This document shows positions 21,223-36,643 of a DNA stretch of 64,000 bases, one piece after another. Below the pieces are notes generated by a model. The model saw only the letters and a list, made by a program, of their open reading frames with translations. It was not told the DNA's origin and searched no databases. Position numbers and translations under genes: made by a program. This DNA comes from Cupriavidus nantongensis (GTDB lineage: Bacteria; Pseudomonadota; Gammaproteobacteria; Burkholderiales; Burkholderiaceae), in assembly GCF_001598055.1 (NCBI RefSeq), contig NZ_CP014845.1, positions 1-64,000 on the forward strand, given 5' to 3'. Each line of letters begins with the position of its first letter. Within the stretch, counting starts at the first letter, position 1.

Positions 21223-23499
21223 TCAGTAGCGCAGGTTCAGATTCAGCACCGCGGTGCGGCCCGGAGCCACGGTCGCATAGTGCGAGGTATAGGCCTGGCT
21301 GTAGTAGGTCTTGTCGGTCAGGTTCTGCACGTTCAGCTGCAGCGCCACGTTCTTGTTGATGCGGTATGCGGCCATCGCATCGAAGCGCCAGTACGACGGC
21401 ACCCACTTGTTGGTGCCCTCGTTGCCCCAGATCTTCGACACGTAGTACGCACCGCCGCCGATGGTCAGGTTGGGCAGCAGCTGGTACGTGGTCCACAGGC
21501 TGAAGCTGTCGTCCGGCGTATTCGGGAACGACTGGCCGTCGCTCAGGCCGAAGGCAGCGCCGGCGCCGCCGTTGTTGCGCAGTTCGCTCTTCAGGTGGGT
21601 GTAGCCGCCGAACATGGCCCACTTGTCGGTCACGTTGCCGGAGAAGCCCAGCTCGAAGCCGTCCACGCGCTTGTTGCCGGCCATGGCGGCGGTGCCGTCC
21701 TGCTGCACGATGCGGGCGTTGGTGGTCTCGATGCGGAAGATCGCCGCGGTCAGCGCCAGGCGGTTCTTCAGTACGTCCCACTTGGTGCCCAGTTCGAACG
21801 AGCGGTTCTTTTCCGGCGCGAGCTGGTCGCCCCGGTTGCCGCTGCGGTCCGGGGCCAGGCCGTTGGGGTCCGAGCCCTGCGCCAGGAACGCGCCGGCGGG
21901 AGTCGACGAGGTGCCGTACGACACGTAGAAGCTGGCGTTCTCCACCGGCTTGTACACCACGCCCAGCTGGTAGTTGAACAGGTTGTCGTCGCGCGAGTAT
22001 TCCGCACGCGAGCCATTGGCCGCGCGCGCCGCGGTGAAGCTGGTGCGGTAGCTGTCGAAGCGCACGCCGCCGTTGACGATCCACTGCTTGCTCAGCTCGA
22101 CCGAGTCGAACAGGTACACCGACGCCGTGTTGGTCTTGGCGTTGGTCGGGTTGTTGGCGCGCGCGATGCTGCCGCGCCACGGGTCGTTGGGGTTGGGGTT
22201 GAGCAGCGTGGTGCAGTTGTAGCCGCCGGCCGCGCCCGCGCCGTTGGGACAGCTGCTGTTGCCGGTGTCGACGTTGTAGGTGTCGTTCTCGCTTTTTTCC
22301 TGCGAGAACTCGACGCCGAAGACGTACTTGTGCTTGATCGCACCGGTCAGGAACTCGCCCGACAGGTCGGTCTGGTTGGCCACCGTGCGCGCGGTGGAAT
22401 AGCGGGTGTTCACGCGGCGCCAGAGCAGGTCGTAGTAGATGTTGCCCTTGCTGTCGTCAGGCTGCGTGTAGATGTAGTCCTGGTTGGTGCGCGAGAAGCG
22501 GGTCTGGTTGCGGAACTTCAGCGCCGGCGAAAAATCGTGCTCGAAGCGGATCGTGCCCATGTCGGCCTGGTCCTTGCGGAAGTCGCGGTCGAGCAGGCCG
22601 TAGTAGGTGCTGCGCGGCACGTTGACCGGCGAGCCGTCGCCGGCCTGGCGCGTGCGCGGGCGGCCGTCGCGGCGCGCAGTGAAGGCCGGGTTGTTGTACG
22701 GGATGCCGACGTCGGGGATGTCGTCGGTCTGCATGTGGTAGTACGACAGCGTCAGGCGTGTGTCGGTGCCCAGGCCGAACGCCACCGACGGCGCCACGCC
22801 CCAGCGCTTCTGGTGCACGGCATCGCGCCCGGCGACGTCCTGGTCGTGGAACATCGCGTTGAGGCGGAACGCCGCGTGGTCGGCGAACTGCCAGTTGCCG
22901 TCGGCGGTGCCGCGCACGTACTGCGCGTTGCCGACGCCGATGTTGCCTTCGGCAAAATTGCCCAGCCGGGGCGCCTTGCTGGTGATATTGATGCTGCCGC
23001 CGGCGGAGCCGCGCCCGTCGTAGGCGCCGGCCGGGCCCTTGGTCACTTCGACATTCTCGACGTTGAACAGCTCGCGCGACTGCGCGCCGATATCGCGGAA
23101 GCCGTCGAGGAAAGTGCTGGCCTGCGCGTCATAGCCGCGGATAAACGGCCGGTCGCCGACCGGGTTGCCGCCCTCGCCCGCGCCGAACGCAATGCCCGGC
23201 ACCGTGCGCAGCACGTCGGTCAGCGTGGTCGAGCCGGTGCTCTGGATGACTTCCTGCGGAATTACCGTGATCGAGCGCGGCGTATCGCGCAGCGGCTCGG
23301 GATTCTTGATCGACGACGAGCTTTCCGCCTTGAAACCGCTGTCGCCGGTGACCGTCACCTGCGGCAGGTTGACCGGCTTGGGCGCCTCTTGCGCGGCGAC
23401 CGGCGCCGCGGCGACTGCGGCGCCGACCATGCCGGTCAATCGAGGAATGGTACCCAGCTTCCCGTGGCTCTTTCTTGTTATGACTGCCGAATACTGCAC
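21223..23499 (-). CDS. TonB-dependent siderophore receptor, Fiu/catecholate-like
   Basis: The 758-residue outer-membrane receptor has a signal peptide (to about residue 37, APVAAQ), a plug domain (RDTPRSITVIPQEVI, RGYDAQASTFLDGFRD, ENVEVTKGPAGAYDGRGSAGGSINI) and a 22-strand barrel ending in a C-terminal aromatic residue (NLNLRY). Plug motifs resemble the catecholate receptors Fiu/CirA-like. It imports a ferric siderophore using TonB energy. The start is a GTG at 23499 with AGAGGG at proper spacing. A Fur-like box lies upstream, so iron repression is expected. No siderophore synthesis genes are in the window. Confidence 0.92.
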   Translation of the reverse strand: MQYSAVITRKSHGKLGTIPRLTGMVGAAVAAAPVAAQEAPKPVNLPQVTVTGDSGFKAESSSSIKNPEPLRDTPRSITVIPQEVIQSTGSTTLTDVLRTVPGIAFGAGEGGNPVGDRPFIRGYDAQASTFLDGFRDIGAQSRELFNVENVEVTKGPAGAYDGRGSAGGSINITSKAPRLGNFAEGNIGVGNAQYVRGTADGNWQFADHAAFRLNAMFHDQDVAGRDAVHQKRWGVAPSVAFGLGTDTRLTLSYYHMQTDDIPDVGIPYNNPAFTARRDGRPRTRQAGDGSPVNVPRSTYYGLLDRDFRKDQADMGTIRFEHDFSPALKFRNQTRFSRTNQDYIYTQPDDSKGNIYYDLLWRRVNTRYSTARTVANQTDLSGEFLTGAIKHKYVFGVEFSQEKSENDTYNVDTGNSSCPNGAGAAGGYNCTTLLNPNPNDPWRGSIARANNPTNAKTNTASVYLFDSVELSKQWIVNGGVRFDSYRTSFTAARAANGSRAEYSRDDNLFNYQLGVVYKPVENASFYVSYGTSSTPAGAFLAQGSDPNGLAPDRSGNRGDQLAPEKNRSFELGTKWDVLKNRLALTAAIFRIETTNARIVQQDGTAAMAGNKRVDGFELGFSGNVTDKWAMFGGYTHLKSELRNNGGAGAAFGLSDGQSFPNTPDDSFSLWTTYQLLPNLTIGGGAYYVSKIWGNEGTNKWVPSYWRFDAMAAYRINKNVALQLNVQNLTDKTYYSQAYTSHYATVAPGRTAVLNLNLRY

Positions 23500-23704: not shown

Positions 23705-25372
23705 TCAGTCGAACTGGTACGAATAGATCATGTTGATGCGCGGCGAGCGGCGGCTGGCATTGGTCGGCTTGTCGCCGACCGGCTGCGCCAGCGACAGGTC
23801 CAGCGTGTAATAGCGCCGGTCCGAGAAGCGCGCGCCCAGCGCCACCGACGACAGGCTGCGGTGCGACAGCGACACGCTGTTCGAATACACGCGCGCCACG
23901 TCGGCCGACACATAGGGCTGGATCGTGCGCAGGTAGGTCAGGTCCGGCAGGAACAGCCGGCTGATTTCCGCCGATGCGCCCCAGCCCTTGTCGCCCGCGA
24001 CTTCGCCGGCGGGGTAGCCCAGGCCGAAGAAGCGTCCGCCAAAGCTGATCTGCTCGCCCGACGCCAGCCGGTCGCCGCTGTACTGGCCGGCGGCGGCCAG
24101 GGTCAGGCCAAAGCCCGCCGGCAGGTCCTTGGACTGCGACAGCAGCAGCCGCGTACGGAAGAAGCTCAGGTCATTGTTGTTGTTCTGGCGGCTCGCGCCC
24201 AGCGCATCGAAGCCCTTGTACAGGCCCAGCGTGGCGTTGCGGCTGACGCCTTCGCCGCGCTGCAGGTAGGTCAGCTCCGCGGTGGCCACGCGCACGTTGG
24301 TGCCGAGCGTCACGCGCGTACCGGTAGCGGTATGGGTATAGCGCTCGAACTGGTCGGCGCCGTAGACGCCGCCGGTCAGTGTCAGCGTATGCGCGTTCGA
24401 CAGCAGCAGCGGATAGCTCAGGGTGCCGCCGATGCGCTTGGTGTCGTTGACATAGCGCGGGTTGAAGCCGATCGGCGCCAGCGTCGCGTTCTGCGGCACG
24501 CCACGGTAGTGCGAGGCATTGAGCCGCGCCACCATGCCCTCGGTGCCGAGCGGCTGTGCATAGCTGGCGGCGTAGTATTCCTCGTTGTCGCGGCCCTTGG
24601 GAAACAGTGCCGACACCGAGACCTGCTCGCCCAGCGGCGTCAGGCTGTTGGTGGTGGCCGTGGCGATGGCGCGCAGGCCCGGCGACATGTATTCGATGCC
24701 GGTGCCGAAGGTGAAGGGTTTGCGCTTGACCTCGAGCACCATCTCGCAGGCGCCGTCGGTGGTGGTCGGCGGCTGCACCGTCGCCGCCACCTGCAGCCCG
24801 GGCTGCAGCGCCAGCGCGTTGACATAGTGCTCGAAGCGGTCCTGGCGCAGCGGGCGGTCCTGCTGCAGCTTCTCGGCGATGGCGCGCAGGCGGCGCTCGG
24901 CCGGGCCCGCCTTGCCGGTCACGGTGACCTTGGCGACGTAGCCTTCCACCACCGTGACCAGCACGTCGCCGTTGGCAAAGTCCTGCGCCGGCACGAACGC
25001 GAACGACAGCGGGTAGCCGCGCTCCTTGTACATCTGCGTCACCGCATTGGCGGCTTCCAGCAGCTGCGCCACCGTGATCTCGCGGTTGGCCAGCGGCTGG
25101 AACTGCGCGGCGACTTCTTCGAACGGCAGCGTCTTCGCGCCCTCGATGCGAAAGCGCCGCGGCGTCAGGCGCGCGTTGAGCAGGTCCTGCATGGCGGGCT
25201 GCGGCCGCTCGACCTGCACGGTCACGCGGCTGTCGGGCCGGGCCGGCGCAATCTTGGGAAGCGTCTGGGTTGGATCGCCCTGGACCGGGCTGCGCGGATC
25301 GGCCTGGACCAGGCCGTGATGGAACGCGCCGACGCCGACCAGCAGCGCGGCAACGCGATGACGTGCACGCAT
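23705..25372 (-). CDS. TpsB/FhaC-ShlB-like two-partner secretion transporter, variant
   Basis: The 555-residue outer-membrane protein has a signal peptide (residues 1-25). A ShlB-type POTRA region follows (RRFRIEGAKTLPFEEVAAQF and EITVAQLLEAANAVTQMYKERGYPLSFAFVP, about 75-165), then a 16-strand barrel ending in YSYQFD. Family members export one partner protein across the outer membrane. The barrel motif that normally reads VRGF/Y reads GLGYPAGEVAGDKG here (about residues 450-463), so the conserved Arg is absent. It lies 182 bp downstream of a repetitive lipoprotein gene on the same strand; no TpsA with a filamentous-haemagglutinin signal domain is nearby. The ATG at 25372 has AGGGG upstream. 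Confidence 0.86.
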   Translation of the reverse strand: MRARHRVAALLVGVGAFHHGLVQADPRSPVQGDPTQTLPKIAPARPDSRVTVQVERPQPAMQDLLNARLTPRRFRIEGAKTLPFEEVAAQFQPLANREITVAQLLEAANAVTQMYKERGYPLSFAFVPAQDFANGDVLVTVVEGYVAKVTVTGKAGPAERRLRAIAEKLQQDRPLRQDRFEHYVNALALQPGLQVAATVQPPTTTDGACEMVLEVKRKPFTFGTGIEYMSPGLRAIATATTNSLTPLGEQVSVSALFPKGRDNEEYYAASYAQPLGTEGMVARLNASHYRGVPQNATLAPIGFNPRYVNDTKRIGGTLSYPLLLSNAHTLTLTGGVYGADQFERYTHTATGTRVTLGTNVRVATAELTYLQRGEGVSRNATLGLYKGFDALGASRQNNNNDLSFFRTRLLLSQSKDLPAGFGLTLAAAGQYSGDRLASGEQISFGGRFFGLGYPAGEVAGDKGWGASAEISRLFLPDLTYLRTIQPYVSADVARVYSNSVSLSHRSLSSVALGARFSDRRYYTLDLSLAQPVGDKPTNASRRSPRINMIYSYQFD

Positions 25373-25507
25373 GGCAAAACCCCTGTAAGAAACACTGCGG
25401 CTATTGACGTCGCGTGCCACTGGCGTGGGGATTGCCGCTACCCCCGGACGCCTGCTGGCCGATACTGCCGGTCCAGCGCGTGGCCGCTACGTTGAATCAG
25501 GTGAGCA

Positions 25508-25543
25508 CCGCTGCCCGCGATCAAACGATCGGCGGGGCAGCGG
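25508..25543 (-). other. Intercistronic hairpin between lipoprotein and TpsB-like genes
   Basis: A 9-bp outer stem (25508-25516 with 25535-25543) encloses an inner CGATC/GATCG stem. It lies just after the lipoprotein stop on the minus strand. No T-run follows, so it may tune mRNA stability or partial readthrough into the transporter gene rather than fully terminate. Confidence 0.5.
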
Positions 25544-25554
25544 CCAAGGCAGGA

Positions 25555-27153
25555 TTACTTCTGGCCGAGCGCGCCAGTCAGGCCGCCGAGCAGGCCGCCG
25601 ACCAGGCCACCGACGGGGCCGGTGGTGGAGCCCTTGGTCGTGGTGCTGCCCGCGGTGGTGGTGGCGCCGCCGGTCACGGCGGAGACGACATTGGTGACCG
25701 GTGCCAGCGGGCTGGTGGTGCCACTGCCGCTGGTTGCGCCGCCAACGCTGCCGACCACACCACCGACCACGCCATTCACCACGCCGCTCACCGCGCCGGT
25801 GACCGGAGCCAGCGGCGTGCTGGCCGTGGCGGAAGCCAGGCCGCCGGTGACGGTGCTGACCAGGCTGGTGACGGGCGCCAGCGGCGAACCACCGGCACCG
25901 CCAGTGGCGCTGCCAAGGCCGCCCACCGCGCCACTGACCAGCGACGTGACCGGAGCCAGCGGCGTGTTGGCGGTGGCGCCGGTCAGCCCTCCGGTGACGC
26001 TGCCGACCAGGCCGGTGACCGGCGCCAGCGGCGAACCCGTGCCGCCGGCGCCTGCCCCGCCCGTCAGCCCCCCGGCCAGCGTGGTAACAGGTGCCAATAC
26101 CGAACCCAGCGCGCCCAGGCCGCCACCGCTGGCGGGGCCGTTCACTGCGCCGCCCAGCGAGGCCACCGTGGTGCCGGTGGCGTTGACCACGCTGCCGACG
26201 CCCGCGACCACCGGCGTGTTGGTCTGTTGCAGCTTGGTGCCGGCGGTGGCCAGCGCACCGCCTACGGTCGCCAGCAGGCTGCTGGTCGGGGCGCCCAGGC
26301 CAGTGGCCGCGCCCAGTGACTGTGTGGTGCTGGTCAGTTGCGAAGTGATCGGCACGATCAGCTTGCTGGTGGTGATGGTCACCTGCTCGACCGCGCCGCT
26401 CGACAACACCGAGGTCAACGTCCCGCCGGTGTTGCTGACGGTATTGCCCAGCGTGCCGACCACCGCGCCCAGCGGCGAAGTCAGCGGCGCCAGCGGTGCC
26501 AGCTGGCCGGTGCCCAGGCCGCTCACCGCTGTGCCGGCGCTGGTCACCGCCTTGCCCAGTTCGGTCACCACGTTGCCGGTGCTGGCGACGGTGGTGCCGA
26601 CCGGGTTGGTCGAATTGGGCATGCTGCCCAGACCGGATTGCAGGCCCGTGGCCAGCGCGCCGACGGCATCGCCGGTCGAGGCCACCACGCCGCCCAGCCC
26701 GCTTTGGGTCTGGCCCGGCACCAGCGGCAGGTTGGCGTTGCCAATCTGGTTGCCGAGGTCGCTGACGGTGCTGCCCGTATTGCCCAGCACCGTGCCGGCG
26801 TTGTTGATCACGGTCGCGGTCGGGGTCCGCGCGGTGGGCGTCTCGCCACCGCCAGTATTGCCACCGGTGTTGCCGCCGTTGTTGCCGCCGGTGCCACCAC
26901 CCGTGCCGCCGCTGCCGCCACCGGTGCCACCCGTGCCCCCGGTACCGCCGCCGGCGAGGTCGGTGCCGCCGCCGGTCCCGCCGGTGCCGCCACCTGTGCC
27001 GCCGGTGCCTCCGTTGTTGCCGCCATTCGTGCCGCCATTCGTGCCAGCGGTATCGCTGGTGCCCATCGACGTCGATCCGCTGCCGCTGGCGCAGCCGCCC
27101 AGGGCCAGCAGGGTTGCAAGGAGTGCCGTTACGGCGAGTTGTTGTTTGCGCAT
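25555..27153 (-). CDS. Repetitive Gly-rich lipoprotein (collagen-like annotation type)
   Basis: The 532-residue protein has a lipobox (LLALGGC, acylated C21), a Gly/Thr/Asn stalk (residues 38-103) and a long Ala/Gly/Val/Thr-rich body. The last third carries five (S/T)PLAPVT motifs spaced about 20-35 residues apart, each followed by a valine/glycine stretch such as SLVSTVTGGL. Charged residues are almost absent. The ATG at 27153 has AAGGA at good spacing; one 15 bp upstream is less likely. The body (about 110-360) is homologous to the divergent gene at 27852-29051. I infer a surface or periplasmic fibre-like lipoprotein; the function is unknown. Confidence 0.82.
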   Translation of the reverse strand: MRKQQLAVTALLATLLALGGCASGSGSTSMGTSDTAGTNGGTNGGNNGGTGGTGGGTGGTGGGTDLAGGGTGGTGGTGGGSGGTGGGTGGNNGGNTGGNTGGGETPTARTPTATVINNAGTVLGNTGSTVSDLGNQIGNANLPLVPGQTQSGLGGVVASTGDAVGALATGLQSGLGSMPNSTNPVGTTVASTGNVVTELGKAVTSAGTAVSGLGTGQLAPLAPLTSPLGAVVGTLGNTVSNTGGTLTSVLSSGAVEQVTITTSKLIVPITSQLTSTTQSLGAATGLGAPTSSLLATVGGALATAGTKLQQTNTPVVAGVGSVVNATGTTVASLGGAVNGPASGGGLGALGSVLAPVTTLAGGLTGGAGAGGTGSPLAPVTGLVGSVTGGLTGATANTPLAPVTSLVSGAVGGLGSATGGAGGSPLAPVTSLVSTVTGGLASATASTPLAPVTGAVSGVVNGVVGGVVGSVGGATSGSGTTSPLAPVTNVVSAVTGGATTTAGSTTTKGSTTGPVGGLVGGLLGGLTGALGQK

Positions 27154-27386
27154 GGTCTGTTCCTTCATTCCCGTCGTTTCAATCGCTCGGCCGCGCAACG
27201 CGTTTGGTCTGCTGCGTGCGGCGGTGACGGTGATGGCGCAATCGGTATGCCAGCCTTTTGGCGTGCTACCGCACAGACCCCGCCGAAGTCGGGTGTGGTG
27301 CCCGCCAGGCCTTGCGGCACGCGGCCTGCGCGGTGTTCGCGGCAAGCGCCGCGAGACCTGGCGGCGCGTGGGAGTAAAGGGCGTGG

Positions 27387-27410
27387 CGCGTTACGCGTTA
27401 CGTAACGTGT
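27387..27410 (-). promoter_or_regulatory. 24-bp dyad operator, copy 1
   Basis: The core CGTTACGTAACG (27396-27407) is a perfect palindrome. Read on the minus strand, the 24-bp element matches copy 2 at 21 of 24 positions. It lies about 235 bp upstream of the leftward lipoprotein gene. Confidence 0.65.
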
Positions 27411-27515
27411 GTCGTGCGCGGGGAACAAAACAGCGCGGGCAAGGCCGCGCGCATCCGGCGCAACTGGCCGTCGCCTGCCCTCCGCGCTGCCGTTGCGTGT
27501 TCCCGCTTGTCCGGA

Positions 27516-27539
27516 ACACGTTACGTAGCACGTAACACG
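27516..27539 (+). promoter_or_regulatory. 24-bp dyad operator, copy 2
   Basis: GTTACGT-AGC-ACGTAAC forms a perfect 7-bp dyad inside the element, with TCCGG and TCCGGA outside it. It lies about 313 bp upstream of the rightward lipoprotein gene and is inverted relative to copy 1. Confidence 0.65.
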
Positions 27540-27709
27540 TCCGGACCCTGCCGCGATGCTGCGCGTGGGTGCTTCGCCGCCACCTTGATTCGCCCCGCAA
27601 GCCGCGCTGCGCAAGGCCTGCGAGCGGCCCGCCGGTCTGTGCGCCGGTCCACCTTGCCGCGCTGGCATGCGCCTTGCCATTTGCTCTGCCGACGCGCTGA
27701 TGATTTCGC

Positions 27710-27756
27710 GTGCCACTGTGCTGCCATGACTGATGGGGATGGCAGGCAGGTGGCAC
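27710..27756 (+). other. Leader hairpin ahead of the rightward lipoprotein gene
   Basis: GTGCCAC (27710-27716) pairs with GTGGCAC (27750-27756) and CTGCCAT (27721-27727) pairs with ATGGCAG (27739-27745). Symmetric 4-nt internal loops lie between the two stems, and the terminal loop has 11 nt. It ends 95 bp before the start codon and would fold in the mRNA leader. Confidence 0.5.
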
Positions 27757-27851
27757 AAAGCGGGACACCGGGGGGGCTCGTCGGCATTCCATGCGGTTCA
27801 CAAGAAAAGACGGCCCGGCAGCGCCGTGGCCAACCAGACAGGAGAAGGACA

Positions 27852-29051
27852 ATGAAGACCAAGCATCCCGCACCGCTTTCCATGACCTCGCTGGCTGCGG
27901 CCGGCATGGCCGCCCTTGCCTTGCTGATGTCGGGCTGCTCGTCGAGCGGCGGCGGCAGCGGCGCCAATCCGCAGCCCAGCGGCGGCGGCACCGATACGCC
28001 GGTCACGCCGCCGCCGCCGGCCGCCGCGCAGACCACGCCGACCGCCAAGGTCACCGAAGGCGCGGGCAATACCGTGGTGGCAACCGGCAACGCCGTCAGC
28101 GAGATCGGCAAGTCGATCCAGGACGCACCGCTGCCGCTGCTGCCCACCGACGCTCGCAAGGGCGCGGGCGGCGTGGTGGTCAATGCCGGCGAAGCGGTCG
28201 GCGCGCTCGGCGCCGGCGTGCGCGACGGGCTCGGGCAAATGGGCTCGGTCGACAACCCGGTCGGCTTGACCGTGTCCAGCACCGGCAATGTCGTGCGTGA
28301 AGTCGGCGACGCCGTGGTCAGCGGCGGCGAGCTGGTGAAGGGCCTGGGCACCGAGAAGCTGGCGCCGCTGGCACCGCTGACCACGCCGGTGGGCGGCCTG
28401 GTCAAGAAGGTCGGCACGGTGGTGCAGGGCGGCGGCGACAAGCTGCAGACGGTGCTGTCCGATGGCGCTGTCGCACAGGTCACCAACTCGCTCAGCAAGG
28501 TGATCGTGCCGCTGACCAGCAAGGTTACCGACGGCACCCAGACGCTGGGCGCCGCCACGCGCCTTGGCGCTCCCGTCGACGGTCTGCTCTACAAGGTCGG
28601 CAATACGGTGGCCACGGGCGGCAGCATGCTCAGCAATACGCAGGCGCCGGTGGTCTCACCGCTTGGCGGCGTGGTGACCGAGGCCGGCAAGACCGTTGCC
28701 GCGGTCGGCGTGCTGGTCAACGGCAACGGCCAGACCGGCGGCAACGCGCTGGGCGGCTTGCTGAACAACCTGCCGCTGGTGGGTGCCGGCAACGGCCAGG
28801 GCGGCGATGGCGGCCACGGCGGCAATGCGCTTGGCGGCCTGCTCGGCAGCCTGCCGCTGGTCAAGCCCGGCAGCGGCGATGGCGGTGCCGGGGGCGGCGG
28901 TGCGCTGGGCCCGGTCGGTGCGCTGCTGGCGCCGGTCACCGGCCTGGTCGGCGGCATCAAGAGCGGTGTCGGCGGCCATGCTGGCGGCGGCTCGGGCGGT
29001 GGCGACGGCAAGCCGCAACTGCCGATCCTGGGCGGACTGCTGCACCACTGA
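27852..29051 (+). CDS. Repetitive Gly-rich lipoprotein, divergent paralogue
   Basis: The 399-residue protein has a lipobox (LLMSGC, C29), a short Gly/Ser/Pro linker (30-62) and a body clearly homologous to the leftward lipoprotein. Shared segments include PTAKVTEGAGNTV, GAGGVVVNAGEAVGALGAGV, DNPVGLTVSSTGNVV, EKLAPLAPLTTPVGGLV and SLSKVIVPLTSKVTDGTQTL. It has a single LLAPVTGLVGG motif near the end where the paralogue has a run of them, and Gly/Asn-rich loops instead. GGAGAAGG precedes the ATG. It runs divergently and lacks a transporter gene of its own; the leftward TpsB-like protein may serve both. Confidence 0.83.
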   Translation: MKTKHPAPLSMTSLAAAGMAALALLMSGCSSSGGGSGANPQPSGGGTDTPVTPPPPAAAQTTPTAKVTEGAGNTVVATGNAVSEIGKSIQDAPLPLLPTDARKGAGGVVVNAGEAVGALGAGVRDGLGQMGSVDNPVGLTVSSTGNVVREVGDAVVSGGELVKGLGTEKLAPLAPLTTPVGGLVKKVGTVVQGGGDKLQTVLSDGAVAQVTNSLSKVIVPLTSKVTDGTQTLGAATRLGAPVDGLLYKVGNTVATGGSMLSNTQAPVVSPLGGVVTEAGKTVAAVGVLVNGNGQTGGNALGGLLNNLPLVGAGNGQGGDGGHGGNALGGLLGSLPLVKPGSGDGGAGGGGALGPVGALLAPVTGLVGGIKSGVGGHAGGGSGGGDGKPQLPILGGLLHH

Positions 29052-29421: not shown

Positions 29422-29619
29422 ATGAAACGACTCATTGCACGCTTTATTAAAGATGAGCGCGGGGCGACGGCTATTGAATATGGGTTGATTGCGGGCCTTA
29501 TCGCGCTTGGTGTTGCTGTGGCAGCCAGTAGCCTTGGCACCAGTATCTCTACTGGCTTCACCAATCTTGCCAGCCGCGTAGTGTTGTGGCTCCCTGCTAG
29601 TGGGACTTCCAAGCCTTGA
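29422..29619 (+). CDS. flp: Flp-family type IVb pilin
   Basis: The 65-residue prepilin has a basic leader ending in DERG, cleaved after G14, then the mature ATAIEYGLIAGLIALGVAVAAS helix with the conserved Glu-Tyr at mature positions 5-6. It forms the Flp pilus fibre involved in adhesion and biofilm formation. GGGAG lies upstream of the ATG. Codon use is visibly more AT-rich (TAT, TTG, ATT) than in the rest of the cluster. It is the first gene of the Tad locus. Confidence 0.95.
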   Translation: MKRLIARFIKDERGATAIEYGLIAGLIALGVAVAASSLGTSISTGFTNLASRVVLWLPASGTSKP

Positions 29620-29634
29620 TCCAATAGCGCTGGC

Positions 29635-30102
29635 GTGATTACCGCGCTCCTCTGCGCGGCGACCCTCTACACAGATTTCGCTTACCGGCGGGTTCCTAAC
29701 CTCCTGCTGGCGATCGCCGTGCTGGCCCTCGGGCTGGCACTGGTCGCCGGACAGGCCACGGAGCCGCCGCTGGCCGCGCGCCTGATCGGTGCGGGGCTGG
29801 GTCTTGCCGTCACCTTGCCGGTCTACGCCCTCGGGCGCATGGCCGCGGGTGATGTCAAGTTCCTGACGGTGGCGGGGTTGTTCACCGGTCCGCAAGGGCT
29901 GGTGGTGGCATGGGTCGTCGGCAGCCTGCTCGGGCTGGTGCACGCGCTGCTGGCACTGGCGCGCCGCACGCCGGCCGCGGATCACGCTTTGCATTCCCAG
30001 GACCAGTCCCTTCCAACGGCGCAGTTTTCGCCGGCGCGCGGCATCCCGTATGCGGCGTACCTGGCCGTGGGGGTGCTGTTCTGGATGGCTGCGGGCCGAT
30101 AG
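29635..30102 (+). CDS. tadV: A24-family prepilin peptidase (TadV/CpaA)
   Basis: The 155-residue polytopic membrane protein processes Flp prepilin and TadE-type pseudopilins. The two catalytic aspartates are D14 (YTDFAYRRVPN) and D73 (RMAAGDVKFL). The short form without the N-terminal methylase domain is typical of Tad loci. It starts with GTG at 29635, 15 bp after the flp stop. Confidence 0.92.
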   Translation: MITALLCAATLYTDFAYRRVPNLLLAIAVLALGLALVAGQATEPPLAARLIGAGLGLAVTLPVYALGRMAAGDVKFLTVAGLFTGPQGLVVAWVVGSLLGLVHALLALARRTPAADHALHSQDQSLPTAQFSPARGIPYAAYLAVGVLFWMAAGR

Positions 30103-30174
30103 CCGGATCGGCTCGAGGCCAGCAGGCCGCGCCGCCGGTCGGCGCGGCAGAACACCAAAAGACCGGGATTTCAG

Positions 30175-30651
30175 ATGTTGCTGCACGCAAGGGTCAACAG
30201 GAAAATCAGCCGGCGCCGCCACGGTGCCGGCAGCGCCGCGATCGAATTTGCGATCGTGGCGCCGGTGCTGATCACCATCGTGATCGGCATCGTCTATTAC
30301 GGCGTGATGCTGGCGCTGCAGCAGGTGCTGACGCTGGCCGCCGAGGAAGGCGCACGCGCCGCGCTGCGCTATCCCGCAGGGGTCGCCGGCACCAGCCTGG
30401 CCGCCACGCAGCAGGCACGTGTCGATGCCGCCGCCGCAATGGCGCGCGGCACCTTGCCCGCATCCATCCGCGACCTGATTCCCGCCGCCGGCGTCGCCAC
30501 GGCCGTGCCATGCGCGGCCGGCTCGGCCGACGTGTGCGTGCAGGTCACGCTGACCCTGACCACCACCAGCATCATGCCCGCGGTGCCGATGGTGCCGCTG
30601 CCGGCCGCGCTGTCGGGCTCGGCCATGGTCCAGCTCTCTCCCGATATCTGA
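30175..30651 (+). CDS. tadE: TadE-like pseudopilin
   Basis: The 158-residue protein has a class-III prepilin-like leader ending HGAG, with E24 at mature position 5 in SAAIEFAIVAPVLITIVIG, followed by one transmembrane helix and a periplasmic domain containing two cysteines (VPCAAG, DVCVQV). TadE is a minor pseudopilin processed by the prepilin peptidase. No TadF gene is present; this single gene may cover both roles. Confidence 0.88.
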   Translation: MLLHARVNRKISRRRHGAGSAAIEFAIVAPVLITIVIGIVYYGVMLALQQVLTLAAEEGARAALRYPAGVAGTSLAATQQARVDAAAAMARGTLPASIRDLIPAAGVATAVPCAAGSADVCVQVTLTLTTTSIMPAVPMVPLPAALSGSAMVQLSPDI

Positions 30652-30694
30652 TGCGCATGACGAATCGCCCCACGGCCGAACCAAGGATTTCCGC

Positions 30695-31645
30695 ATGACC
30701 AGCAAGCAGATCCGATTACTGGCCATTGTGCTGCTCGGCCTGGCCTTGCTTCTCGCGCTGCTGGCGTGGCAGGTGGGACGCCAGCCGGCCCAGCCCGCGG
30801 CATCGGCCGGCGCCAGGCCGCTGCACCCGGTGGTGGTCACCACGCGGCCGGCGGAAGCCGGCAAGCCGCTCGATGCCGAGGCGCTCAAGGTGGAGCTGCT
30901 GCCGATCGATCCCGCCGGCGCCTACCGCGACGTGGCACGCGTCACCGGGCAGGTGCCGCTGGTGGCGCTGGGCGCCAACGTGCCGGTGCTGGAAAGCCAG
31001 CTGCTGTCCGGCCTGGCCGCGCAGGTGCCGGAAGGCGAGCGCGCGGTGGCGGTGTCGGTCGATGAAGTCATCGGCGTCGGCAACCAGGTGCAGCCGGGCG
31101 ACTATGTCGATGTATTCCTGGTGCTGCGGCGCGACCAGCAGGAAATCCCCGACAGCCAGGCGCGCATGCTGCTGTCGCGCCTGCGCGTGCTGGCCTACGG
31201 CGTGGCCTCGGTCAACCGGCCGCAGGCGGCCAAGCCGGAACAGATGATGGCACGCCAGGAAGGCGCCAAGACCGCGGTGCTGTCGGTGCCGCTGGAACAG
31301 GTCAGCCGGCTGGCGATGGCGCAGCAGTCCGGGCGCCTGATGCTGGCGCTGCGCAATCCGCAGGACGAAGCCATGCCGAGCGACGGCATGTTTGCCGAGC
31401 CGCCGCCGGCGCTCGCCGCACGCGCCGGGGTGCCCGCCGACGCAGCGCGCGCCGCCCCCGACAAGGCTACCGCGGGCGTGCTGTTGTCCGGGCTGGCCGC
31501 CAGCAACGGCGCGCCGGCCGCGCGCGCACCGGCGGCAGCGCCGGCGCCGCGGCCGCTGCAGGTTGCCGCGCCGCCGGCGCCGGCACAAGCCAGGGAACGC
31601 GCCGGCGTGGAAGTGATCCGCGCCGGCAAGCGCGATATCGAATAA
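30695..31645 (+). CDS. cpaB: Flp pilus assembly protein CpaB/RcpC
   Basis: The 316-residue protein has one N-terminal membrane anchor (LLAIVLLGLALLLALLAWQ), a SAF domain (PLHPVVVTTRPAEAGKPLDAEAL) and a CpaB core (VPEGERAVAVSVDEVIGVGNQVQPGDYVDVFLVL). The C-terminal 80 residues are Ala/Pro-rich. It is a periplasmic component thought to link the secretin with the inner-membrane platform and peptidoglycan. It is followed closely by the secretin gene. Confidence 0.92.
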   Translation: MTSKQIRLLAIVLLGLALLLALLAWQVGRQPAQPAASAGARPLHPVVVTTRPAEAGKPLDAEALKVELLPIDPAGAYRDVARVTGQVPLVALGANVPVLESQLLSGLAAQVPEGERAVAVSVDEVIGVGNQVQPGDYVDVFLVLRRDQQEIPDSQARMLLSRLRVLAYGVASVNRPQAAKPEQMMARQEGAKTAVLSVPLEQVSRLAMAQQSGRLMLALRNPQDEAMPSDGMFAEPPPALAARAGVPADAARAAPDKATAGVLLSGLAASNGAPAARAPAAAPAPRPLQVAAPPAPAQARERAGVEVIRAGKRDIE

Positions 31646-31664
31646 GAACGTGGGCGCCCATCGC

Positions 31665-33077
31665 ATGCCAATCCAGAACACTCCCGCCCACGCCGCAACG
31701 CTGCGCCGCCGGCTGATGCAGCTAACCCTTGCCGCCATGCTCGCCACCACCGCATGGTGCGCGCTGGCGCCGCGCGCGCAGGCGCAGGACGCCGCCACCG
31801 CGCGGCAATTGCGCCTGATGGCCGGCGCGCAGAAGGAACTGCGCAGCGCGCAGCCGGTCGAGCGCGTCGCCGTGGGCAACCCCGTGGTCGCCGATGCGCT
31901 GATCCTGCGTACCCGCGGCGCGCCCAGCGTGCTGCTGGTGGCCAAGCAGCCCGGCGTGACCGACGTGATGGTGTGGACGCGCGGCAGCGCCGAGCCGCAG
32001 AACTACAGCGTGCAGGTCGATGCCATCGCGCCCGATGCCAACGGCGCGCAGTTGGGCTACTCGGCAGCCGGCGCCACCATCACCGGCCAGTCGCCCGATG
32101 CCTATGGCGCCGCGCGCGCGCAGGCGGCGGCGCGTGCGGCCACTGCGGGCAAGACCGACGGCAAGCCCGGCCTGGTGGTGGACCGCTCCACGGTGCCGCT
32201 GAGCGGCACCGTGCAGGTCGACGTCAAGGTGGTGGAGATCAGCAAGACCGTGCTCAAGGAAGTCGGCATCAACTTCTTCCGCAACAACTCGGGCTTTGCC
32301 TTCGGCACGTTCTCGCCGTCGACGCTGAACAAGTTCACCTTCACGCCGGGCAGCGGCGGCGCGCCCGGCAGCTTCAGCGCCGATATCGCATCGCCGATGA
32401 GCAATGCCTTCAACCTGGTGGCGGCGTCGCTTACGCACGGCATCTTCGCCAACATCAGCCTGCTGGAAGCCAACGGCCTGGCGCGCGTGCTGGCCGAGCC
32501 CAGCCTGGTGGCGCTGTCGGGGCAGAGCGCCAGCTTCCTCGCCGGCGGCGAGATCCCGATCCCGGTGCCGCAGGCGCTGGGCACCACCACGATCCAGTTC
32601 AAGCCGTTCGGCATCGGGCTGACGGTGTCGCCCACGGTGCTGTCGGCCGACCGCATTGCGCTGAAGGTGGCGCCCGAGGCCAGCGACCTGGACCCGTCGC
32701 GCGGCATCTCGATCAACGGCGCGGTGGTGCCGGCCATCGTCACGCGCCGCGCCGACACCACGGTCGAGCTGGGCGACGGCGAGAGCTTCGTGATCGGCGG
32801 GCTGGTCAGCCGCAACACCGTCAGCAACGTCAACAAGGTGCCGGTGCTGGGCGACCTGCCGGTGATCGGCGTGTTCTTCAAGAACCTGAACTTCCACCAG
32901 GAAGACCGCGAGCTGATGATCGTCGTCACGCCGCGCCTGGTGAAGCCGATGGCGAAGAACGCGCCGGCGGCGCAGGCGGTCGGCGCCGACGGACGGACCA
33001 GTGCCAGCCCCAATGTGTGGGGCTGGTATGTGATGGGTGAGTACGCGGACCCGACCTTGCCGGGTTTCTCGAAATAG
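31665..33077 (+). CDS. rcpA: Tad-system outer-membrane secretin RcpA/CpaC
   Basis: The predicted 470-residue protein has a signal peptide ending near APRAQAQ, a BON-like pilus-assembly N-domain (LRSAQPVERVAVGNPVVADALIL) and a secretin domain (about 180-430) with VPVLGDLPVIGVFFKNLNFHQEDRELMIVVTPRLV. The multimer forms the outer-membrane pore for the pilus. The ATG at 31665 is used; a GTG 15 bp upstream (31650) is equally possible because neither has a strong ribosome site. Confidence 0.91.
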   Translation: MPIQNTPAHAATLRRRLMQLTLAAMLATTAWCALAPRAQAQDAATARQLRLMAGAQKELRSAQPVERVAVGNPVVADALILRTRGAPSVLLVAKQPGVTDVMVWTRGSAEPQNYSVQVDAIAPDANGAQLGYSAAGATITGQSPDAYGAARAQAAARAATAGKTDGKPGLVVDRSTVPLSGTVQVDVKVVEISKTVLKEVGINFFRNNSGFAFGTFSPSTLNKFTFTPGSGGAPGSFSADIASPMSNAFNLVAASLTHGIFANISLLEANGLARVLAEPSLVALSGQSASFLAGGEIPIPVPQALGTTTIQFKPFGIGLTVSPTVLSADRIALKVAPEASDLDPSRGISINGAVVPAIVTRRADTTVELGDGESFVIGGLVSRNTVSNVNKVPVLGDLPVIGVFFKNLNFHQEDRELMIVVTPRLVKPMAKNAPAAQAVGADGRTSASPNVWGWYVMGEYADPTLPGFSK

Positions 33078-33124
33078 CCGCCGGCCATGCCGGCTGGCAT
33101 GGCCAACAGCTTTGAGGCGGAGAG

Positions 33125-34384
33125 ATGGACTATTTTCTGTTGCACGCAACGCAGGGCGAAGTCAGGGACTGGCTGGGCCGGGTCATCGGCGCGCACGGCA
33201 CGCTGGTGGCCGATGGCGGCGCGCAGGAAGGCTTTATCGAGCGCGTCTCGGAGCTGCGCCCGGGCCTGGTGTTCCTGCATTTCTCGGCGGAACTGGCGGC
33301 GCCGTCGGCGCGGCTGGCCGAGCAGCTGCAGCGGCTGTTCCCCGGCCTGCCGCTGGTGGCGGTGGGCCAGGCCGGCGAGCCCGGCGTGATGCTGGCCGCG
33401 CTGCGCGCGGGGGTAAAGGACTTCATCGACCTGCGCGACGCGCCGGCCGAAGCCGAGGCCGTGGTCAAGCGCCTGGCCGTGCCGAGCGAGCACGTGCGCC
33501 CGGCCGAGGCCGCGCGCCAGGGCAGGATCATCGCGCTGCTGGGTGCGCGCGCCGGCGTGGGCGTGACCAGCCTGGCGGTCAACCTGGCCGCGGCGGCGCG
33601 CCGCCACCTGCCGCGCCATGCCAAGACCGATGCCCGCGCCGAAGTGCTGCTGACCGACCTGGGCCTGCCGGCGCGCGACGGCGCGCTCTACCTGAACCTG
33701 AGCCCCGGCTTTCATTTCGTCGAGGCGGTGCGCAACCTGCGCCGCTTCGACCAGGTCTTCGTGCAGACCGCGCTGACGCGCCACGCCAACGGCGTGTGCG
33801 TACTGCCGCTGCCGGCCGCGCTGAGCGAGCTGCGCGACATCTCGTACGCCGATGCGATCGGCCTGCTCGAGCGCCTGCGTGCGTTCTTCGACTTGCAGAT
33901 CGTCGACCTGGGCGGCTTCGGCAATGCCGAGTTCACCGCGCAGATCGTCAAGGCTGCCGACAGCGTGGTGCTGGTGGCGGACCAGAGCGTGGGCGCGATC
34001 GTGTCGGCGGCGGAGCTGGTGCATGAACTGCGCGCGCGAGAAGTCGAGCGCGACGACCTGCATTTGCTGGTGTCGCGCTTCGATGCGCGGCTGGGCGTCG
34101 ATGCCGCGCAGATCGCGCGGCGCGTGGGCGTGGAGTCGGTGGCGACGCTGCCGGACAGCCGCGAGGCGCTGGTGCTGGCGATGAACCGTGGCGCGGTGCT
34201 GGCCGACGACGACCCGCACTGCCCCTATGTGCGCGCGCTGGCCGAGCTGCTGGCACGGCTGGGCTATCGCACCGCCGCGGCCAAAGAAACCACGCTGCTG
34301 GCGCGGATCAAGGACAAACTGCCCGGGGCGCTGCGCGCAGCGCTGGTAGCGCGCGGCGCGCGCACGGCTCGCACTGGAAGCTGA
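33125..34384 (+). CDS. tadZ: TadZ/CpaE pilus-localisation ATPase-like protein
   Basis: The 419-residue protein has an N-terminal receiver-like domain (residues 1-115) and a MinD/ParA-type domain. The Walker A segment reads GARAGVGVTSLAVNLA (140-155), with Val at the position of the invariant P-loop lysine (V147) and Arg in place of the signature lysine. Such degenerate loops occur in several TadZ proteins, which are thought to act as polar landmarks. GGCGGAGAG precedes the ATG. Its stop is 1 bp before tadA. Confidence 0.9.
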   Translation: MDYFLLHATQGEVRDWLGRVIGAHGTLVADGGAQEGFIERVSELRPGLVFLHFSAELAAPSARLAEQLQRLFPGLPLVAVGQAGEPGVMLAALRAGVKDFIDLRDAPAEAEAVVKRLAVPSEHVRPAEAARQGRIIALLGARAGVGVTSLAVNLAAAARRHLPRHAKTDARAEVLLTDLGLPARDGALYLNLSPGFHFVEAVRNLRRFDQVFVQTALTRHANGVCVLPLPAALSELRDISYADAIGLLERLRAFFDLQIVDLGGFGNAEFTAQIVKAADSVVLVADQSVGAIVSAAELVHELRAREVERDDLHLLVSRFDARLGVDAAQIARRVGVESVATLPDSREALVLAMNRGAVLADDDPHCPYVRALAELLARLGYRTAAAKETTLLARIKDKLPGALRAALVARGARTARTGS

Positions 34385-34385
34385 C

Positions 34386-35702
34386 ATGACCCAAGCGATC
34401 GAATTCTCCGACAACGCCCCGGCACCGTTCCCGGTGTCGCAGGAGTTCCACAACATCAAGGAAGCCGCGCACGAGCACCTGCTGACGCGCATCGAAGAGC
34501 TGGGGGCCGAGTTCGGCCGCTGGTCGCGCACCGCGATCCAGCGCTTTGTCGACCTGGAGCTGGAGAGCTTTACGCGGCTGCGGCGCATTCCCATCAACGA
34601 GGCCGAGCTGCGCCAGATCGCCGAGGCGCTGACCAAGGAGCTGGCCGGATTCGGCCCGATCGAGGACCTGCTCAACGATCCCGCCGTCGAAGACATCCTG
34701 GTCAACGGCCACCTGGACGTGTACGTGTCGCGCCATGGCGTGCTCGAGCGCATCCCGGTGCGCTTTGCCGACAGCGGCCACCTGCTGCGCATCGTGCGCC
34801 GCATCCTGGCGCCGATCGGCCGGCGCCTGGACGAATCCAACCCGATGGTCGACGCGCGCCTGCCCGACGGCGGCCGCATCAACGTGGTGATCCCGCCGCT
34901 GGCGCTGGAAGGCCCGGTGGTGTCGATCCGCAAGTTCCGCAAGGACCCGATGACGCCCGCCGACCTGCAGGCGCTCGGCACCATGAGCCCCGAGATCTGC
35001 GACCTGCTGCAGGCCGCGGTGCAGGCGCGCTGCAATATCCTGGTGAGTGGCGGCACCAGCTCCGGCAAGACCTCGCTGCTCAATGCGCTGGCCACCTTCG
35101 TGCCGCCGACCGAGCGCGTCATCACCATCGAGGATACCGCCGAGCTGGCGCTGAACCATCCGCATGTGGTGCGGCTGGAAAGCCGGCCCGGCGGCTTCGA
35201 GGGCACCGGCGTGGTGTCGATCCGCGACCTGCTGCGCAACAGCCTGCGCATGCGCCCGGACCGCATCATCGTCGGCGAAGTGCGCGGCGGCGAAGTGCTG
35301 GAAATGCTGCAGGCGATGAGCACCGGCCACGACGGCTCGATGGGCACCATCCACGCCAGCAGCCCGCGCGAATGCCTGTACCGGCTGGAGATGCTGGCCG
35401 GTTTCGCCGGCTTCCAGGGCAGCGAGATGAGCCTGCGGCGCCAGATCGCCAACGCCATCGACTTCATCGTGCAGATTGCGCGGCTGTCCAACGGCAAGCG
35501 CCGCATCGTCTCGATCACCGAGGTCACCGGCCTGGGCGACAACATCATCTCGACCCAGGAGCTGTACCGGCACGAGCCGTTCGTCAACCCCGACGGCACC
35601 GAGACCGACCGCTGGCTGTCGCTGGGCCTGCTGCCGCACTCGCCCAAGCTGGCGCGCATGCGCGGCCCGGGCTTCATGCTGGACGACCGCTTCGATGTCT
35701 AG
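34386..35702 (+). CDS. tadA: TadA/CpaF secretion ATPase
   Basis: The 438-residue hexameric GSPII_E-type ATPase drives pilus assembly. The Walker A is GGTSSGKTSLLN with K228, the Asp box reads TIEDTAELAL, Walker B is RMRPDRIIVGEVRGGE and the His box is STGHDGSMGTIHA. The N-terminal CpaF region (LAGFGPIEDLLNDPAVEDILVNG) is intact. It directly follows tadZ and overlaps tadB by 8 bp, so expression is coupled. Confidence 0.95.
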   Translation: MTQAIEFSDNAPAPFPVSQEFHNIKEAAHEHLLTRIEELGAEFGRWSRTAIQRFVDLELESFTRLRRIPINEAELRQIAEALTKELAGFGPIEDLLNDPAVEDILVNGHLDVYVSRHGVLERIPVRFADSGHLLRIVRRILAPIGRRLDESNPMVDARLPDGGRINVVIPPLALEGPVVSIRKFRKDPMTPADLQALGTMSPEICDLLQAAVQARCNILVSGGTSSGKTSLLNALATFVPPTERVITIEDTAELALNHPHVVRLESRPGGFEGTGVVSIRDLLRNSLRMRPDRIIVGEVRGGEVLEMLQAMSTGHDGSMGTIHASSPRECLYRLEMLAGFAGFQGSEMSLRRQIANAIDFIVQIARLSNGKRRIVSITEVTGLGDNIISTQELYRHEPFVNPDGTETDRWLSLGLLPHSPKLARMRGPGFMLDDRFDV

Positions 35703-36621
35703 CGCCACGCTGCTGCTCGCCGCGCTCGCCCTGGTCATCACCGGCCTGGGGCTGCTGCTGCTCGCCGGCGCGCAGTCGCGCGCGCGCCGCGAACAGCAGC
35801 AGGCGTTCCTGCAGGCGCAGACCGAGCAGGTGCGGATGCGCTACACACAGGCGCCCGACCCGTCGCTGCAGCTGCCGGCGCGCGACCTGCGCCGGCGCTG
35901 GGACGACTTCCTGCGCCGCGCCGACCTGGCGCCGACGCGCCGCACCGCGCTGCTGTGGCTGTCTCCGCTGGTGCTGTGCACGCTGGCCGGTGCCGTGGCG
36001 GGGCAATGGCTGGGCGCGGTGTCGGCGCTGGTGGTGGCGCTGGCGGTGACGGCGTGCGCGGCCTGGCACCGCGTGCGCCGGCTGCACAAGAAGCTGCTGT
36101 CGCAGCTGCCCGGCTTCCTGGATGGCGTGGTGCGGCTGATGACCATCGGCAGCAGCGTGCCGGCGGCGTTCCAGAATTCCATCGCCAATACCGAGGCCCC
36201 GCTGCGCCAGTGCCTGGTTCAGGCGGTGCACCTGCAGCGCGCCGGCAAGGAACTGGACCAGGCGGTGCTGCAGGTGGGGCGCGCCTACAAGGTCGAGGAA
36301 CTGGTGCTGGTGGCTTCGGTGCTGCGGCTGTCGGTGCGCTACGGCGGCCGCGCCGACGTGGTGATGGAGCGCACCGCCACCTTCATGCGCGACCGCGAGC
36401 AGGCGCAGCGCGAGCTGATGGCGCTGTCGGCCGAAACCCGGTTGTCGGCCTGGGTGCTTGGCCTGCTGCCGCTGGTGGTGGCCGGCGGCCTGTTCACGCT
36501 CAACGCGGGCTACATCCTGATGATGTGGAAGGACCCCACCGGCAAGACCATGCTGCTGTCGGCCGCGGCGCTGGAAGTCGCCGGCGCGCTGATGCTGTAC
36601 CGGCTGGCCAAGTCGATCTGA
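35695..36621 (+). CDS. tadB: Inner-membrane platform protein TadB
   Basis: The 308-residue polytopic protein has a type II secretion F domain (QLPGFLDGVVRLMTIGSSVPAAF ... LVLVASVLRLSVRYGG) and several hydrophobic helices: one at the N-terminus (residues 5-25), a pair (80-120) and two at the C-terminus. With TadC it forms the platform on which TadA acts. The ATG at 35695 lies inside the tadA reading frame. Confidence 0.92.
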   Translation: MSSATLLLAALALVITGLGLLLLAGAQSRARREQQQAFLQAQTEQVRMRYTQAPDPSLQLPARDLRRRWDDFLRRADLAPTRRTALLWLSPLVLCTLAGAVAGQWLGAVSALVVALAVTACAAWHRVRRLHKKLLSQLPGFLDGVVRLMTIGSSVPAAFQNSIANTEAPLRQCLVQAVHLQRAGKELDQAVLQVGRAYKVEELVLVASVLRLSVRYGGRADVVMERTATFMRDREQAQRELMALSAETRLSAWVLGLLPLVVAGGLFTLNAGYILMMWKDPTGKTMLLSAAALEVAGALMLYRLAKSI

Positions 36622-36643
36622 AGGCAACGATGACATCGCCCCC

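Follow-up and report, generated by a model that had tools for sequence, protein, structure and literature searches.

A distinct group of TpsB-like transporters encoded with repetitive lipoproteins: a candidate non-classical two-partner system in Cupriavidus and its relatives

Two-partner secretion (TPS; type Vb) joins a TpsB transporter such as FhaC, ShlB or CdiB, with two POTRA domains and a 16-strand barrel, to a TpsA cargo protein; the two genes lie on one strand and canonical export is linked to a TPS domain that is beta-helical. Slam, another outer-membrane barrel, consists of TPR repeats and a DUF560 barrel with a predicted 14 strands; Slam genes are often found beside genes for lipobox proteins, and some Slams are reported to place lipoproteins on the cell surface (PMC5449769). 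The collagen-like PF15984 proteins of the Burkholderia cepacia complex are treated as putative adhesins (Estevens et al. 2023, PMC10224339). The locus described here touches on all three. It lies in the first 64,000 nucleotides of contig NZ_CP014845.1 of Cupriavidus nantongensis (assembly GCF_001598055.1), a stretch referred to below as the window, and consists of the gene for a TpsB-like transporter and two genes for repetitive PF15984 lipoproteins. Genome comparison shows that the transporter belongs to a distinct TpsB group. Its members accompany repetitive lipobox proteins that have no detected TPS domain, and in most cases are encoded next to them. The group probably represents a non-classical (type Vb-like) two-partner system, a TpsB subfamily that would display repetitive lipoproteins on the cell surface.

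The transporter gene (23705-25372, minus strand) encodes 555 amino acids from its ATG (an alternative GTG start is possible at 25420) and matches Pfam POTRA_2 (6.2e-19) and ShlB (2.2e-16). Upstream on the same strand, with 182 bp to the TpsB ATG, lies the gene of lipoprotein 1 (CLP1), the putative cargo (25555-27153, its start possibly at 27168; 532 amino acids; PF15984 Collagen_mid, 3.4e-69). The gene of the paralogous lipoprotein 2 (CLP2), a putative second cargo (27852-29051, plus strand; 399 amino acids; PF15984, 3.5e-72), is divergent. An earlier note, made from the letters of the window alone, had described a TpsB/FhaC-type gene downstream of, and co-directional with, a repetitive lipoprotein gene, and a second, divergent paralogue; reading frames and Pfam matches bear out both statements. 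The two lipoproteins score 233 and 243 bits against a curated PF15984 cut-off of 31.1 and are the only matches to that family in the whole genome. The closest named records of the transporter, 99% identical, are those of C. alkaliphilus and C. neocaledonicus.

The same 200 Burkholderiaceae genomes were searched for PF15984, for the transporter and for the TPS-domain family PF05860, transporter orthologues being the listed rows above a gap in score between 164 and 97 bits. Both PF15984 and the transporter are present in 108 genomes, PF15984 only in one, the transporter only in one and neither in 90 (Fisher p ~2e-55, which serves as a guide only, since the genomes are related and not independent). 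Below the gap, the matches listed include other TpsB proteins and pieces of broken copies in genomes G124 and G167. Both single-family exceptions may reflect decay: in G177, which has PF15984 only, the match is shortened to profile positions 27-194 of 198, in a 242-amino-acid frame, and in G117, which has the transporter only, the transporter is interrupted by a stop. G124, counted as neither, retains a broken transporter piece (46% identity) with a stop, and G167, counted as both, combines a stop in the transporter with a truncated PF15984 match; lipoprotein and transporter show signs of decaying together in these four genomes. Among the genomes listed, 20 of the window's genus hold both families and two (G098 and G123) neither, and 20 of the 22 listed for genus g10 (probably Pandoraea) hold both. 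The locus is present in two C. necator genomes as well (L008 and L009). The transporter is usually present once per genome; one, two, three, four and five PF15984 matches are found in 10, 33, 29, 13 and 24 of 109 genomes, respectively, so that the single dedicated partner per TpsB of which the earlier note spoke does not describe this group. Genome G061 has two separate lipoprotein-transporter loci (L082 and L083), each with Tad genes nearby.

Gene order is conserved as well. In 87 of the 108 genomes (74 counted by script and 13 by eye from coordinates), the transporter gene is preceded at close range by a co-directional PF15984 gene. The script found it within 3.5 kb upstream in 74 of the 75 genomes that it checked; in the exception, G151, the contig concerned is only 3.2 kb long. 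The 20 genomes in which the genes are not adjacent all belong to g10, where either different contigs carry the lipoprotein and transporter genes or at least ~2 Mb separates them; the two g10 genomes that were read have tandem lipoprotein genes beside Tad genes, with the transporter elsewhere. Among 57 genomes of a gammaproteobacterial family, PF15984 is present in eight and a strong transporter match in nine. All eight PF15984 genomes have the transporter, and in seven, by coordinates, a co-directional lipoprotein gene is adjacent on its upstream side; in G609 a separate contig carries the transporter, whose frame is broken by stops. The G620 transporter also contains a stop, and the ninth transporter (G585) begins ~0.8 kb from a contig end. 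The lipoprotein gene is directly upstream of the transporter in loci L136-L140 and L142 of this family and in L143 of another. Failure of the adjacency to be conserved in related genomes, which the earlier note had said would speak against its proposal, is thus not what is found. Conserved pairing and adjacency together exclude, and lead us to reject, the notion that these are chance neighbours, and the linkage of transporter and lipoproteins is, on the genome comparison, as good as certain.

What the locus lacks is an ordinary TpsA. By Pfam, both lipoproteins next to the transporter match PF15984 only and show no TPS domain. The whole genome yields a single PF05860 match, outside the window (C2:460548, in an open frame of 2853 amino acids), and two ShlB-family matches, the window transporter and C2:472268; the PF05860 match lies ~11 kb upstream of the latter, on the same strand. 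Since the genome's one PF05860 protein sits by the other TpsB, the window transporter has no obvious TpsA in this assembly. No PF05860 match was found in 12 of the 108 genomes that hold the pair, some of these assemblies being incomplete (G053, 83%; G151, 90%), and over the 200 genomes PF05860 and PF15984 are loosely associated (97 with both, then 60, 12 and 31 in the remaining classes). The absence of a haemagglutinin-type TpsA from the locus, remarked on in the earlier note, therefore stands, and these counts lend support to its description of a non-classical TPS pair.

The transporter itself is made up of an apparent signal peptide (assigned by eye), a short conserved SPVQGDPTQTLPKI segment, two POTRA domains and a 16-strand barrel. 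The AlphaFold2 (AF2) model (mean pLDDT 83.7, from 61 sequences) contains both POTRA domains and the barrel, whose 16 strands were counted by reading the model's strand list, and the best Foldseek matches to it are CdiB (6wim) and FhaC (4ql0). In its two POTRA domains and 16-strand ShlB barrel this member of the Omp85 superfamily has the TpsB architecture. Databases already class it in the ShlB/FhaC/HecB family; the new aspect is its partner. An IQ-TREE analysis places 32 lipoprotein-linked transporters on one side of a branch with 100/100 support and 21 other TpsB proteins on the other, and a thinned set with order-level rows added gives the same split (22 against 12 rows, 100/100; the root is for drawing only). 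The lipoprotein-linked TpsB-like proteins are thereby shown, by comparison, to form a distinct group apart from the sampled ordinary TpsB. Rows of 149-184 bits (G832, G636 and G682) were excluded from the group, the tree placing them among ordinary TpsB; G832 has a PF05860 neighbour, and no TPS domain was detected by Pfam in the pieces scanned for G636 and G682.

According to a review (PMC5422565), a salt bridge between Arg and Asp holds L6 in a similar place in every Omp85 structure available, the usual partner of the L6 Arg being the Asp of the F/GxDxG motif. At the L6 tip of the ordinary TpsB proteins, all 23 have VR[AG][YF] (VRAY, VRGY and the like), with Arg second, and three further rows (GRGY, GRGY and VRAY) bring the tally of Arg to 26 of 26 sampled. 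It is missing in all 53 distinct Burkholderiaceae members of the lipoprotein-linked group, the window transporter having GLGY (residues 450-453; 24014-24025, minus strand). Its Asp partner is retained in 51 of the 53, in the window as Asp491 (23900-23902, minus strand) of a motif that reads SADVA, the next Gly being Ala. The gammaproteobacterial members have [GA]RGY and keep the Arg in nine of nine cases; among the order-level members it is kept in L171-L173 and missing in L174 and L178-L181. The pattern suggests that the Arg may have been lost more than once. Its loss was rejected as a marker of the whole group because the gammaproteobacterial members and L171-L173 retain it, as was the change of V to G in the same motif, because rows L175 and L176 on the ordinary side are also GRGY.

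The lipoproteins are built from a lipobox and low-complexity segments around the PF15984 domain. The lipobox reads LLALGG before CAS in CLP1 and LLMSG before CSS in CLP2. In CLP1 it is followed by a Gly/Thr-rich linker, the Collagen_mid domain and C-terminal LAPVT repeats, six of them at residues 353-490 (25684-26097, minus strand); a seventh, LAPLT, is inside Collagen_mid. Of the 316 window frames of at least 100 amino acids, the two lipoproteins are the only ones with two or more LAPVT repeats. Of the 72 full lipoprotein frames (L018 and L097 being the same gene), 69 contain the lipobox pattern. Two of the three misses are pieces of frameshifted genes (L014) and the third (L089) has a lipobox outside the pattern; for one frame in each of L015, L016 and L020 the pattern settled on an early Cys. 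Every one of the 69 has A, S, G, T or V directly after the Cys chosen. Of 72 lipoprotein frames from betaproteobacteria, 70 contain a LAPVT-type motif, whereas shuffled sequences average 0.03 each; the count is descriptive, given the homology of the frames and the presence of one copy within Collagen_mid in both window proteins. The AF2 model of CLP2 (pTM 0.46, from a shallow 38-row alignment) has long helices at 63-290 and disordered flanks; pLDDT is 81-91 as far as residue ~200 only, and a PDB comparison of the domain gave no match at E < 0.001. True collagen was considered and rejected for CLP1 and CLP2, whose longest in-register GXX runs are 6 and 5 triplets against shuffle maxima of 9 and 8; in this they differ from Bucl8 of Burkholderia and other GXY bacterial collagens, which are likewise Gly-rich and named collagen-like, GXY being found in relatives L173 and L179. 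Two entries of the PF15984 lipoprotein family (P0125 and P0127) are named hemagglutinin in databases, a name perhaps borrowed from the TpsB neighbour.

Sampling of 300 genomes across the order for the transporter and PF15984 brings in eight transporters from outside Burkholderiaceae that score more than 350 bits. PF15984 proteins are the neighbours of four (L178-L181); the other four come from genomes without a PF15984 match (G645, G690, G805 and G780), where the neighbourhoods (L171-L174) hold other lipobox proteins rich in PVT-type repeats. The gene directly upstream of the transporter has 21 such repeats in L171 and 20 in L172; the L173 lipoprotein, upstream on the same strand with one repeat gene between, has a GXY collagen stretch (PF01391) and LAPVT repeats. 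In L178 and L179 the transporter gene comes first and the lipoprotein genes after it; GDP repeats were seen by eye in L179. An alignment-based protein search added one new relative. PF15984 matches below the cut-off (G241, G338 and G676) were left aside. Repeat proteins without a lipobox are encoded between the lipoprotein and transporter genes in L173 (6302-7096) and L181 (7648-8505); perhaps they are extra cargo, and they imply that the lipid may not be essential for recognition.

Placed beside the described systems, then, the pair resembles type Vb in its transporter and in its gene order, with both genes on one strand and that of the putative cargo usually first. It departs from type Vb in having as partner a lipoprotein without a detected TPS domain and predicted to be alpha-helical or disordered, in the loss of the L6 arginine in Burkholderiaceae members and in the several partners that one transporter often has. 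With Slam it shares the position of an outer-membrane barrel gene beside a lipobox protein gene. The resemblance ends there: PF04575 (DUF560) is not in the Pfam result of the window transporter, which is POTRA_2 and ShlB only, and the eight-stranded TbpB-like barrel domain that Slam cargo shares is not a feature of the window lipoproteins. (A search of the window genome for a Slam barrel gave no match; the control genomes gave none either, so this carries little weight.)

A counterpart of the locus seems already to be on record. By gene order and size (PMC10224339, Table 1), bcal1522-1525 of Burkholderia cenocepacia appear to be the same locus, which would make bcal1522 the presumed counterpart of the window transporter and puts the lipoproteins of both in the one PF15984 family. 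It is listed there as a putative exported heme utilization-related protein, and the terms FhaC, ShlB and two-partner have no occurrence in PMC10224339, the only paper found in the open-licence PubMed Central (PMC) literature to name bcal1522; in the portions of that literature available, no description of it as a TpsB was found. BCAL1524 is reported in outer-membrane vesicles and is needed for auto-aggregation (PMC10303873). BCAL1520, 1523 and 1524 rise together with Flp genes on contact with host-membrane vesicles (PMC7970998), and BCAL1524-1520 and BCAL1525-1537 are given as two putative operons (PMC2753556).

In the window, too, pilus genes are close at hand, CLP2 adjoining a Tad/Flp pilus operon. 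Its first gene encodes the Flp pilin (29422-29619, plus strand; PF04964, 6.3e-16); the others (29635-38556, plus strand), identified by Pfam matches, encode a prepilin peptidase, TadE, RcpC, a secretin, TadZ, an ATPase, a T2SSF-type protein and a TPR protein that is TadD-like by its position. Matches to Tad proteins occur in 32 of the 36 loci taken as betaproteobacterial (L005-L020 and L080-L099; the misses are L007, L084, L085 and L090) and also in L134, L135 and L178-L181. The gammaproteobacterial loci L136-L140, L142 and L143 and the order-level loci L171-L174, all of 14-19.5 kb, contain no match to the window's Tad proteins, and loci of that size leave room for a distant Tad operon in these genomes. 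The lipoprotein-transporter link thus holds without nearby Tad genes in L136-L140, L142 and L143, just as the tandem lipoproteins beside Tad genes in g10 show the lipoprotein-Tad link holding without an adjacent transporter. Two further features of the neighbourhood may be recorded. In the divergent region between CLP1 and CLP2 (27169-27851) there is a palindromic pair around CACGTTACGTA, ~100 bp apart (27387-27410 and 27516-27539), and such a pair is present in all three Cupriavidus loci examined (L005, 5874-5897 and 5995-6018; L013, 6112-6147 and 6254-6289), perhaps as the site of a shared regulator. Just downstream of the transporter is a gene for a TonB-dependent siderophore receptor (21223-23499; best model Fiu, below cut-off), and a TonB-dependent receptor gene has the same place in some other Cupriavidus loci.

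The Lol route ordinarily takes lipoproteins to the inner leaflet of the outer membrane, and in the mechanism that we favour CLP1 and CLP2 would be made, lipidated and delivered in just that way. The POTRA domains of the transporter would then capture the unstructured Gly-rich or LAPVT-repeat part of the lipoprotein, and the chain would pass through or along the barrel to the cell surface, where its lipid would still tether it; one transporter would serve one to several lipoproteins. In Burkholderiaceae the displayed proteins would contribute to adhesion and aggregation together with the Tad/Flp pili encoded next to them. A bolder version, which we put forward only tentatively, is that the whole clade of Omp85/TpsB proteins has left TPS-domain beta-helices behind and become an export machine for low-complexity LAPVT- or Gly-repeat lipoproteins, one that recognises disordered repeats in place of a folded secretion domain and that gates independently of the L6 Arg in Burkholderiaceae and some relatives.

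The same partners might be put to other uses. The lipoproteins could be permanent subunits or anchors of a barrel whose complex inserts or exports something else. Such an arrangement has a precedent in BAM, where the lipoproteins BamB-E serve the BamA barrel, and co-occurrence alone would fit it equally well. (BamB is described as a lipoprotein partner of BamA in PMC4104836.) It is rendered unlikely by the one to five PF15984 matches per genome that go with what is usually a single transporter, and by repeats and domains that vary widely, down to loss of PF15984, as would be expected of cargo rather than of a subunit. It is also conceivable that transporter and lipoproteins do cooperate but that the barrel releases the lipoproteins or displays them in soluble form, for example after cleavage. 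The lipobox-less repeat proteins encoded between lipoprotein and transporter in L173 and L181 would suit such a scheme; with a lipobox in 69 of 72 frames, and with BCAL1524 in vesicles and hence membrane-associated (PMC10303873), we consider it very improbable.

The pilus genes offer a different reading, in which barrel and lipoproteins form an accessory module that helps to assemble, pilot or anchor the Tad/Flp pilus secretin. The Tad matches in 32 of 36 betaproteobacterial loci and in L134, L135 and L178-L181 speak for it, as do the joint induction of lipoprotein and Flp genes in B. cenocepacia (PMC7970998) and the adjoining of the two putative operons there (PMC2753556). The window's Tad operon has its own TadD-like TPR gene, however, TadD is already reported to be the secretin pilotin (PMC10499894), and no Tad match was found within the loci L136-L140, L142, L143 and L171-L174; an accessory role for the pilus is accordingly judged improbable. 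Least probable of all is that the cargo of the transporter is an ordinary TpsA whose gene lies elsewhere, the neighbouring lipoprotein being only linked. The overall domain architecture is that of a TpsB and a PF05860 protein exists somewhere in 96 of the 108 genomes, but the other 12 have no match (a few assemblies being incomplete), the one TpsA in the window genome has a different TpsB near it, and the tree separates the transporter group from the sampled ordinary TpsB. Moreover, the transporter tracks PF15984 almost one to one (108, 1, 1 and 90 genomes), and PF05860 enters into far looser association (97, 60, 12 and 31). This reading is already largely refuted.

Surface display of the lipoproteins remains the reading that we prefer, and several points weigh against it. 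The lipoprotein domain is predicted to be all-alpha, whereas canonical TPS export is tied to a beta-helical domain, and the LAPVT repeats had to be rejected as a universal signal, the motif being found in none of the seven gammaproteobacterial lipoproteins. An Asp directly after the lipobox Cys leads to retention in the inner membrane in E. coli, and the lipoproteins of L171 and L172 have Asp in that position. In L174 (G780) the LAPVT-repeat lipoprotein is ~2.4 kb away and convergent rather than upstream. The tree program warns, for the tree of 32 and 21 rows, that long branches may group falsely and that composition is uneven. With the L6 arginine gone, the Burkholderiaceae members may work by a different mechanism. 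The presence of BCAL1524 in vesicles is no proof of an outward orientation, and PMC7970998, which names the induced genes, makes no mention of BCAL1522. Within the open-licence PMC literature, which excludes subscription papers and preprints, no experiment on the transporter, whether on transport, binding or surface exposure, was found.

Few machines are known that carry lipoproteins across the outer membrane, and how they make the crossing is an open question; the transporter described here is named as a candidate, one that is spread over Burkholderiaceae and present in other families. It would suggest a possible function for the PF15984 family, so far called putative adhesins. The natural TpsB variants without the L6 arginine provide a means of testing the role of that residue in Omp85 proteins. 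Should surface display by these transporters prove true, it would constitute a second, evolutionarily independent solution, beside Slam, to the problem of placing lipoproteins on the cell surface.

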